A stretch of DNA of 64,000 bases from Demequina maris (lineage in GTDB: Bacteria > Actinomycetota > Actinomycetes > Actinomycetales > Demequinaceae), in assembly GCF_000971155.1 (NCBI RefSeq), contig NZ_BBLX01000003.1:186001-250000 (forward strand). Reading direction: 5' to 3'. Below the pieces are notes generated by a model. It did no database searches. It saw only the letters and a program-made list of their open reading frames with translations, and was not told the origin of the DNA. The stretch's first letter is position 1; every line of letters begins with the position of its first letter. Of this stretch, positions 4,917 to 47,432 are shown in pieces. A program made the position numbers and the translations under genes.

Positions 4917-5269
4917 GAGGGCGAGCCTAGTCGCGGGCATCGGCGCCGACCGCATCGTCCCCGGCGTCGTGTGCTGTCCCCTCCGTCGCATCGATCCGCG
5001 AACGGTGCGACATCCGGGCGCGCGAGCACCGCGATGTCGCATCGATCGCGACATGGTCCGACATGCGGGCGTGCGGACGCGACGATGCGGCACGGACCTG
5101 CCCGGCGCATCGTCCCGCGCCCGGCAGCGCCCCGCATGCGGGCGATTCCCGGATCGGCCCGCATTCCAGGCTCCTACGACCCAGAACGCGGGCGGATCGC
5201 GGATCCACCCGCATCCCAGGACGGGCGGCGCGGGACGATGCGCGGCCCACGCATCGGCCCAGGACACGC
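4917..5269. other. Gene-free 400-bp gap rich in inverted and direct repeats
   Basis: No credible gene lies between the M16 start and the pnp terminator. The stretch contains four copies of ACGATGCG (4951 and 5106 minus, 5082 and 5235 plus), the word GTCGCATCGATC at two places near 4984 and 5034, the inverted repeat TGCGACATC/GATGTCGCA, the overlapping palindrome ATGTCGC-N7-GCGACAT, and a pair of imperfect 33-bp direct repeats at 5138-5170 and 5188-5220. Codon-like readings in the six frames are Arg/Ala-rich and look like shadows. Confidence 0.6.
5138..5220. repeat. Two imperfect 33-bp direct repeats, 50-bp period
   Basis: Copy 1 at 5138-5170 and copy 2 at 5188-5220 both begin GCGGGCG, share a central GGATC and end with CCCGCATYCCAGG; about seven positions differ. 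Each copy can fold on its own because the GCGGG at its start is complementary to the CCCGC near its end. Confidence 0.6.
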
Positions 5270-19884: not shown

Positions 19885-19988
19885 ACCCCTCCACACACGG
19901 TGGACCGTGCTCCACACGGGCTCCGGCGTGTCGCGGGGGGACACGCCGACCTTCGCCCTCAACTCGCCGCGCGGCGTGTGGAGGGGCG
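19885..19988. terminator. Convergent intergenic hairpins between the lipoprotein gene and proS
   Basis: The gap between two convergent genes holds CGGCGTGTC (19924-19932) and GACACGCCG (19940-19948), a perfect 9-bp stem, enclosed by CCCCTCCACAC near 19886 and GTGTGGAGGGG near 19977. It probably ends transcription from both sides. Confidence 0.55.
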
Positions 19989-45995: not shown

Positions 45996-46619
45996 TCACG
46001 GGGAGACGATGCGCCGGATGCGCGCGATCGCCGCGTGGATGTAGGTCTCGACCTCCGCCTCGTCGCCGGACTGCTCGATCCAGAGCCGGCTGATGACGGG
46101 GAACGCGCCGAACGCGACGCTCATGACGAGCTGGGCCTCGTCGCTCGCCTCGGTCGCGGGCATGTCGGGGTGCTGGTCGGCGAGGCGGCGGCGCACGAGC
46201 TCGGCCGTGGCCTGGCGCTTGCCCGCCATGCGGGTCACCTGCAGCGCCTGGAGCGACGGCTCCTTGGCGTACAGCTCGCGACGCATCGCGAACACCTCGC
46301 GGTCGGGCTCCGTGGCGAAGAAGCCGCGGGCGATCAGCAGCATGAGGTCCTCGACGATCGGGCCGCGCCCGTGCACGAACTCCTCGACGAAGGCCTCGTC
46401 GGGCGTCGAGGGCGCGGGGCCGATGAGGGCCCCCTCCTTGGTGCCGAAGTAGTTGAAGTAGGTCCGCGGCGAGATGTCGCTCGCCTCGCAGATCATGTCC
46501 ACCGTCACGTCGTCCACGCCGTGCTCCAGCGCGAGCGCGAGCGCGGCGCGCTCGACACGGCGGGTGCGGCGCAGGCGGTTGCGCTCGCGGAGTCCGAGCA
46601 CGGGGGTGGCGGTGGGCAT
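45996..46619 (-). CDS. TetR-family transcriptional regulator
   Basis: 207 residues from MPTATPVLGLRERNRLRRTR. Helix-turn-helix HGVDDVTVDMICEASDISPRTYFNYFGTKEGAL near 35-67 and a ligand-binding domain ending IHAAIARIRRIVSP. The first methionine coincides with the predicted transcription start (see 46619-46660), so the mRNA may be leaderless. Likely represses itself and the exporter until a drug binds. Confidence 0.9.
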   Translation of the reverse strand: MPTATPVLGLRERNRLRRTRRVERAALALALEHGVDDVTVDMICEASDISPRTYFNYFGTKEGALIGPAPSTPDEAFVEEFVHGRGPIVEDLMLLIARGFFATEPDREVFAMRRELYAKEPSLQALQVTRMAGKRQATAELVRRRLADQHPDMPATEASDEAQLVMSVAFGAFPVISRLWIEQSGDEAEVETYIHAAIARIRRIVSP

Positions 46620-46660
46620 GTCCACATTCTTGCAGTCACTGCACTTTTGCGTCAAGTGCA
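46619..46660 (-). promoter_or_regulatory. tetR promoter with overlapping palindromic operators
   Basis: On the minus strand -35 TTGACG (46650-46655) and -10 AAGAAT (46626-46631) with an 18-base spacer place transcription start at or beside the ATG at 46619. The spacer is covered by TGCAGTCACTGCA (46631-46643, 6-bp arms around one base) and TGCACTT-N7-AAGTGCA (46640-46660). Typical layout for an autorepressor. Confidence 0.55.
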
Positions 46661-46714: not shown

Positions 46715-46799
46715 CGCACCGAACCGGCGTACAGGACCGGGCTCGTGCGCATCGTCCCTGGTCCCGGACCGGACGATGCGGCACGTACGCCGGTTGCGT
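46715..46799. repeat. 85-bp nested-hairpin element, copy A
   Basis: Outer arms AACCGGCGTAC and GTACGCCGGTT (11 bp perfect), middle stem GTGCGCATCGTCC with GGACGATGCGGCAC (one-base bulge) and inner GGTCC-C-GGACC. 83 of 85 bases are the same as copy B. Confidence 0.85.
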
Positions 46800-46823
46800 C
46801 AGGTCGGGGCACGCCGCCCTCCA

Positions 46824-46900
46824 CAAGTCACACCTCTGACGCCGGGTGCGCGCGGCGCACACGGGGATCCGGCCGCACCGGTCGTCAGAGGTGTGACTTG
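46824..46900. repeat. 18-bp perfect inverted repeat between the two 85-bp elements
   Basis: CAAGTCACACCTCTGACG (46824-46841) and CGTCAGAGGTGTGACTTG (46883-46900). The 41-base spacer has its own hairpin GTGCGC-GCG-GCGCAC. The arms are less GC-rich than the surroundings, unlike the flanking elements. Confidence 0.85.
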
Positions 46901-46922
46901 CGAACGGGGGCCACCCGCCGGG

Positions 46923-47007
46923 CGCACCGAACCGGCGCACAGGACCGGGCTCGTGCGCATCGTCCCTGGTCCCGGCCCGGACGATGCGGCACGTACGCCG
47001 GTTGCGT
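46923..47007. repeat. 85-bp nested-hairpin element, copy B
   Basis: Direct repeat of copy A, 208 bases downstream, with one change in the left outer arm (GGCGCAC for GGCGTAC) and one in the central loop (GGCCCGG for GGACCGG). Confidence 0.85.
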
Positions 47008-47061: not shown

Positions 47062-47095
47062 GCACGAGGCCCCCGGCGTTCACCGGGGGCCTCGT
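47062..47095 (-). terminator. Terminator hairpin of the DUF2469 gene
   Basis: Perfect 14-bp arms CACGAGGCCCCCGG (47062-47075) and CCGGGGGCCTCGTG (47082-47095), loop CGTTCA, 13 bases past the stop. Confidence 0.8.
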
Positions 47096-47108
47096 GGACG
47101 GGTGCGGC

Positions 47109-47432
47109 TCAGCGGCCGCGGATCTGACGGATGTCGGGGAGGTCGTCGTCGCGGGCGAGCTCCTCGATGTTGACGTCCTTGAACGTCACGACGCGCACGT
47201 TCTTGACGAGGCGCGCGCTGCGGTAGACGTCCCAGACCCAGGCGTCGGCCATGGTCACCTCGAAGTAGATGTCCCCGCCTGACGCCTTGACCTGGAGGTC
47301 CACCTTGTTGCACAGGTAGAACCGACGCTCCGTCTCCACGACGTACTGGAACAGTCCCACCACGTCGCGGTACTCGCGGTAGAGCGCGAGCTCGGCTTCG
47401 GTCTCGTAGTTCTCGAGGTCTTCGTGGCTCAC
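47109..47432 (-). CDS. DUF2469 family protein
   Basis: 107 residues, MSHEDLENYETEAELALYREYRDVVGLFQYVVETERRFYLCN, acidic, no signal or membrane segment. A conserved actinobacterial protein of unknown function that nearly always lies beside rnhB, as here. The full length and both ends match the family. Confidence 0.92.
   Translation of the reverse strand: MSHEDLENYETEAELALYREYRDVVGLFQYVVETERRFYLCNKVDLQVKASGGDIYFEVTMADAWVWDVYRSARLVKNVRVVTFKDVNIEELARDDDLPDIRQIRGR

Follow-up and report, generated by a model that had tools for sequence, protein, structure and literature searches.

The window, a stretch of 64,000 nucleotides, is part of a Demequina genome of 2.97 Mb (G000) that was analysed as stretches and by genome-wide searches. 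Three repeat elements lie between the 3′ end of a DUF2469 gene upstream (47109..47432) and the 5′ side of a TetR-family gene downstream (45996..46625), both on the minus strand. Their order is family 1, family 2, family 1. The family 1 members, copy A (46715..46799) and copy B (46923..47007), are direct repeats identical at 83 of 85 positions and offset by 208 bp. Both were delineated by repeat comparison and genome search and are placed on the minus strand, that of copy A being set by its GGGACGATGCG box. The family 2 copy (46824..46900, plus strand), identified by folding and genome search, consists of a perfect 18-bp inverted repeat, CAAGTCACACCTCTGACG, at 46824..46841 and 46883..46900, with an interior of 41 bp. 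The sequence-only reading had reported the two 85-bp copies and the inverted repeat; all are real and their coordinates and identity were reproduced. A separate, perfect 14-bp hairpin (47063..47096, minus strand) lies just downstream of DUF2469 and is likely the operon's own terminator, so that a terminator role for the elements is unneeded in this gap. The same hairpin is present in G010 and G019, both of which lack family 2 there.

Family 1 combines two inverted 11-bp arms, AACCGGCGTAC, extending 74–75 bp end to end, with an asymmetric central box, ACCAGGSACGATGCG, at nearly invariant spacing. Of 69 copies drawn from four species, 68 have an arm span of 74 or 75, and in 66 the offset from the start of the arm to the box is exactly 33 bp. 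The consensus reads ACGCAACCGGCGTAC, a variable spacer, ACCAGGSACGATGCG, a second variable spacer and GTACGCCGGTTGCGT; the 11-mer GGGACGATGCG forms the core of the box. In copy A the first arm is exact (46722..46732, equivalent to C20:232722-232732), the box ACCAGGGACGATGCG occupies 46748..46762 on the minus strand and the second arm, GTACGCCGGTT, found by exact-arm search, 46785..46795. Copy B carries one substitution in its first arm (AACCGGCGCAC, 46930..46940), the same box ACCAGGGACGATGCG at 46956..46970 (minus strand) and, by exact-arm search, the same second arm GTACGCCGGTT at 46993..47003. Family 2 has CGCAAGTCACACMTCTGRCG arms with a span of 77–78 in all 17 copies and a weaker central motif around CGG.

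The two window copies had been described as three nested stems. The outer arms are near-invariant; the facing ACGATGCG words that make the middle stem are in essence confined to the two window copies, with only 43% of cells pairing over 21 copies. Within the family 1 arm a 4-bp ACGC/GCGT stem is possible, the outer ACGC not being conserved in many copies. Folding is more stable than that of shuffled sequence, with z around −2 to −3 for the two family 1 copies of the window and around −8 for the hairpin of the 18-bp repeat.

Family 1, searched for with the 85-mer, occupies about 26 places in G000, and family 2, searched for with the 18-bp repeat hairpin, 17 places, one of them between copies A and B. 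A survey of 47 genomes from the GTDB family found convincing family 1 copies of full length in G000, G010, G019 and G024 alone (four of 44 species) and family 2 in G000, G022 and G008 alone (three of 44). Exact family 1 arm pairs outside G000 occur in D. rhizosphaerae, D. soli and Demequina sp. SYSU T00192; beyond the genus the arm pattern gave only three single matches, which resemble chance hits. On a tree of the rnhB–DUF2469 region family 2 is scattered, and family 1 occupies a small clade, with a gap at G018/G023. Exact-arm search of G000 places 38 of 38 exact family 1 arms inside family 1 elements, and the reversed arm word, used as control, is absent. With no exact arm lacking its partner, that genome contains no larger element bounded by exactly these ends. 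An origin in phages or plasmids was rejected, no match to the elements being found among viral contigs or plasmids. A literature search for the 11-mer word and for Demequina repeats returned nothing relevant among the papers covered.

The copies are intergenic, mostly at the 3′ ends of genes, and none lies inside a called gene. Once duplicates are removed, gaps that carry an element divide into 39 convergent, 30 tandem and five divergent, against 59, 228 and 126, respectively, for gaps of at least 40 bp without one; these classes are approximate, the gene calls coming from a simple codon-score caller that had been trained on the window. Convergent gaps are enriched (p 5e-12) and divergent gaps depleted (p 6e-6). 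Relative to tandem genes the orientation of the box is random (13 versus 19, p 0.38). The flanking genes, judged by sequence reading, mix housekeeping and acquired functions with no common pathway, and a regulon was rejected.

How old are the copies? In G000 the family 1 arms match the consensus at 97.6% and the box at 93.9%. Spacer identity between loci is 0.441, as it is when the spacer columns are shuffled; the most alike dispersed pair reaches 0.647, less than the 0.672 that shuffling gives as its mean maximum. The exception is the A/B pair at 0.97, the sole pair in G000 whose spacers resemble each other, which bears out the earlier suggestion of a recent duplication or gene conversion. 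G024 has two adjacent pairs with alike spacers (0.94 and 0.85), so recent copying has been local, and A and B represent a recent local duplication or conversion. Over 34 orthologous comparisons the arms are 0.89–0.91 alike, the box 0.91, the spacers 0.61–0.64 and the flanks 0.56–0.59, bearing in mind that this estimate of selection uses copies found by a G000-trained profile, which favours intact arms. Fourfold sites between the three closest species are 0.72–0.74 alike. The arms in G010 and G019 match the consensus at 90–94%, below G000. Since arms and box are kept and the spacers of dispersed copies are randomised, the dispersed copies are old and each has been preserved in its own place.

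The core of the box is itself abundant. GGGACGATGCG occurs 713 times in G000 and its reversed control once. Counts range from 120 to 884 in 15 other species, making 16 of 44 Demequina species rich in the word, and do not exceed 52 in the rest. Close inverted pairs of the word are found in the rich species and number two or fewer in any other. The 11-mer is asymmetric and its total count shows no strand skew. It is enriched between genes, with 58 of 85 ten-base matches intergenic in 239 kb of which 88% is coding, a sample centred on the elements. In the window it occurs at 4951, 5106, 5232, 7752, 8244, 12829, 13244, 18042, 20680, 21880, 31406, 32193, 44252, 46748, 46956, 51578 and 52481. It may be an uptake-sequence-like or other genome-wide word.

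Orthologous gaps often hold an element of another family. At several, including the DUF2469 gap, family 1 is present in G000, G010 and G019 and family 2 in G022. G018 and G023 have a further arm family, CCAATG...CATTGG, with the same 11-mer inside. Members of this family with GATGTGAC, plus the 11-mer in G018 and G023, were noted at L274 and L275 (the GroEL gap of G023 and G018), L288 and L290, and a member in G010 has long, near-perfect arms. In the GroEL gap of G017 (L280) several degenerate direct repeats form an array around CGTATGTCGGACG. There is also a third arm family, CTCCACAC...GTGTGGAG, with a G010 member that carries the family 1 box ACCAGGGACGATGCG; a probable copy lies in a convergent gap of the window (19889..19983, unstranded) and others at L139:2226-2334 and L228:11010-11112. 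Yet another, GCACGGATC...GATCCGTGC, encloses the 11-mer in G010. Given the number of arm families, gaps would be shared to some extent anyway, which makes such sharing weaker evidence for functional equivalence than first appears. Many relatives have a short, empty gap at the orthologous position. At gaps that hold a family 2 copy in G000 and were readable in the sister species, family 2 was not found in the latter, where some of the gaps are empty. The empty orthologous gaps are too diverged for a junction to be read and no target duplication was recognised.

We favour, with moderate confidence, an explanation in which the elements are dispersed, composite, dyad-symmetric DNA sites, maintained at gene ends and putatively read by protein. 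One or more dedicated proteins would recognise arms and box in double-stranded DNA, the arms being bound by a dimer or pair and the box by a second contact, and the bound proteins would form a complex of fixed geometry at the ends of genes. By analogy with proposals for REP/BIME, the most likely use would be as a gene-end boundary that blocks read-through or collision, or as a topological site; such a boundary or topology role is our inference. At some of the shared gaps related species have a different arm family. The data are better matched by composite protein-read sites than by RNA hairpins or by transposons with recent activity. The fast gain and loss of copies fits mobile DNA as well. 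More speculatively, and with low confidence, the elements may constitute a previously undescribed Demequina system of interchangeable arm families, each with its own putative protein and some built around a shared box that contains the most striking repeated word of the genome, marking gene ends; species would differ in the arm family used at each gap, as in dialects.

A possible, if somewhat doubtful, alternative is that these are old non-autonomous mobile elements of MITE or REPIN type, the transposase being lost or not known, the arms its recognition ends and gene 3′ ends the least harmful sites of insertion. Inverted ends of fixed size, a patchy species distribution with empty orthologous gaps, the sharing of gaps by several unrelated arm families and REP-like placement are all in its favour. 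A RAYT transposase is the usual explanation of REP-like repeats. The check for such a gene proposed with the sequence-only reading went against it: RAYT (PF01797, the IS200/IS605-type Y1 transposase) was found in 0 of 47 family genomes with control genomes positive, and involvement of RAYT/IS200 was rejected. Nor did G000, where every exact arm is accounted for, yield an autonomous parent sharing these ends; divergent ends would escape that search. An island of two or three divergent family 1 copies without the usual box, at a conserved locus with genes named from sequence reading as FNT transporter, SDR, YaaA and aminotransferase (L183, L155 and L141), was considered as a parent and rejected; these are ordinary genes with elements in their gaps. 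Also against the mobile explanation, no two dispersed copies have a spacer in common, and dead copies should lose their arms as fast as their spacers; no target duplication was recognised. The earlier proposal of a non-autonomous mobile element thus holds as a possible origin, which patchy distribution and turnover of families allow, and does not hold for recent dispersal, of which there is no sign, just as there is no partnerless arm.

That the elements act as RNA, as 3′-end hairpins serving as terminators, stability elements or sRNAs, is improbable. The strong predicted folds and the placement at gene 3′ ends would suit such a role. In the covariance check, on 21 family 1 and 17 family 2 copies, covariation and pairing were below those of shuffles and the arms vary independently, a comparison of low power for family 1 because its arms are near-invariant. 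The asymmetric box is randomly oriented, there is no T tract, the DUF2469 gap has its separate terminator-like hairpin, and Rfam gave no match to the elements. On the covariation counts and Rfam result the structured RNA envisaged in the sequence-only reading was rejected.

More improbable still is a role in recombination, with small gene cassettes entering and leaving at the elements rather as they do at integron attC sites. At a few loci the arrangement is element–gene–element in direct orientation, with cargo that differs between species: VOC and HxlR genes in G000, a MazF-type toxin in G024, and a slot with AbiEi/DUF559 genes that vary among species and are absent in G019. The intervening genes lie at L228:4861-6203, L243:7664-8523, L234:6835-8009, L230:5010-6112 and L242:8271-9440; for some of these loci the matching gap in relatives holds a single element or different cargo. 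Against cassettes, most sites stand alone and are flanked in relatives by the same genes, the box has no set orientation with respect to the cassette gene, no recombinase was identified and the GTTRRRY/RYYYAAC ends of attC are unmatched, on which basis attC identity was rejected. Insertion provides an alternative way to double an element. In G022 an IS1634-like DDE transposase (L177:2917-4973) sits between direct repeats of 178 bp that differ by one mismatch, each including a complete family 2 element. The repeat is an unusually long target duplication, and such an insertion is one way of doubling an element. Finally, a local accident, tandem duplication only, predicted no further copies and is already refuted, with practically no chance of being right, by the dozens more in G000 and the copies in other species, for all that A and B are near-identical, close and the sole recent pair in G000.

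Set beside known systems, the elements do not pass as REP/REPIN or MITE members. Integron attC sites are imperfect palindromes with conserved ends and a variable interior that sometimes flank single genes, as do the Demequina elements. The latter differ in being mostly single and dispersed, in having an interior of fixed length with a conserved box, and in the family 1 ends, ACGCAAC/GTTGCGT with outer positions not conserved, as opposed to RYYYAAC/GTTRRRY. MITEs, for example the Correia elements of Neisseria, are likewise short and intergenic with terminal inverted repeats; here, in contrast, no parent with the same ends was found in G000, no target duplication was recognised and dispersed interiors are dissimilar.

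The CGTC-tagged REPs, most of them known in alpha-Proteobacteria, are also extragenic palindromic repeats with no dedicated transposase (PMC3733652). They possess an 8–9 bp stem, an unpaired CGTC tag and a CCA tail (PMC3733652), none of which the Demequina elements have, and in family 2 CGTC falls within the paired arm. In layout the elements resemble REP/BIME and REPINs, in which REP doublets form hairpins in Pseudomonas and enterics; in SBW25 the REPIN 16-mers are separated by 71 bp (PMC3116915, PMC3733652). Shared features are an inverted pair of conserved ends at fixed distance about a variable spacer (PMC3116915, PMC3733652), extragenic placement downstream of genes, mostly in convergent or tandem gaps, and several families per genome with species-specific variants. 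Differences are the lack of a RAYT/Y1 transposase and of the GTAG tag, which is absent from the consensus arms ACGCAACCGGCGTAC and CGCAAGTCACACMTCTGRCG; single arms that are apparently not conserved stem-loops and never occur, as exact arms, without a partner; and, in family 1, the conserved asymmetric middle box and the lack of recent dispersed copies. The REP/BIME-like dispersed extragenic family put forward earlier therefore stands as to layout and placement and not as to REP/REPIN membership, which fails on RAYT and tag, and the elements are classed as looking like REPINs rather than as being REPINs. They predict DNA-binding proteins yet to be found, which an 85-bp bait could catch, and make the old question of host-serving versus self-serving repeats directly testable. 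In this actinobacterial genus, which has no RAYT, a REPIN-like layout has long been preserved in each single copy with its geometry nearly exact.
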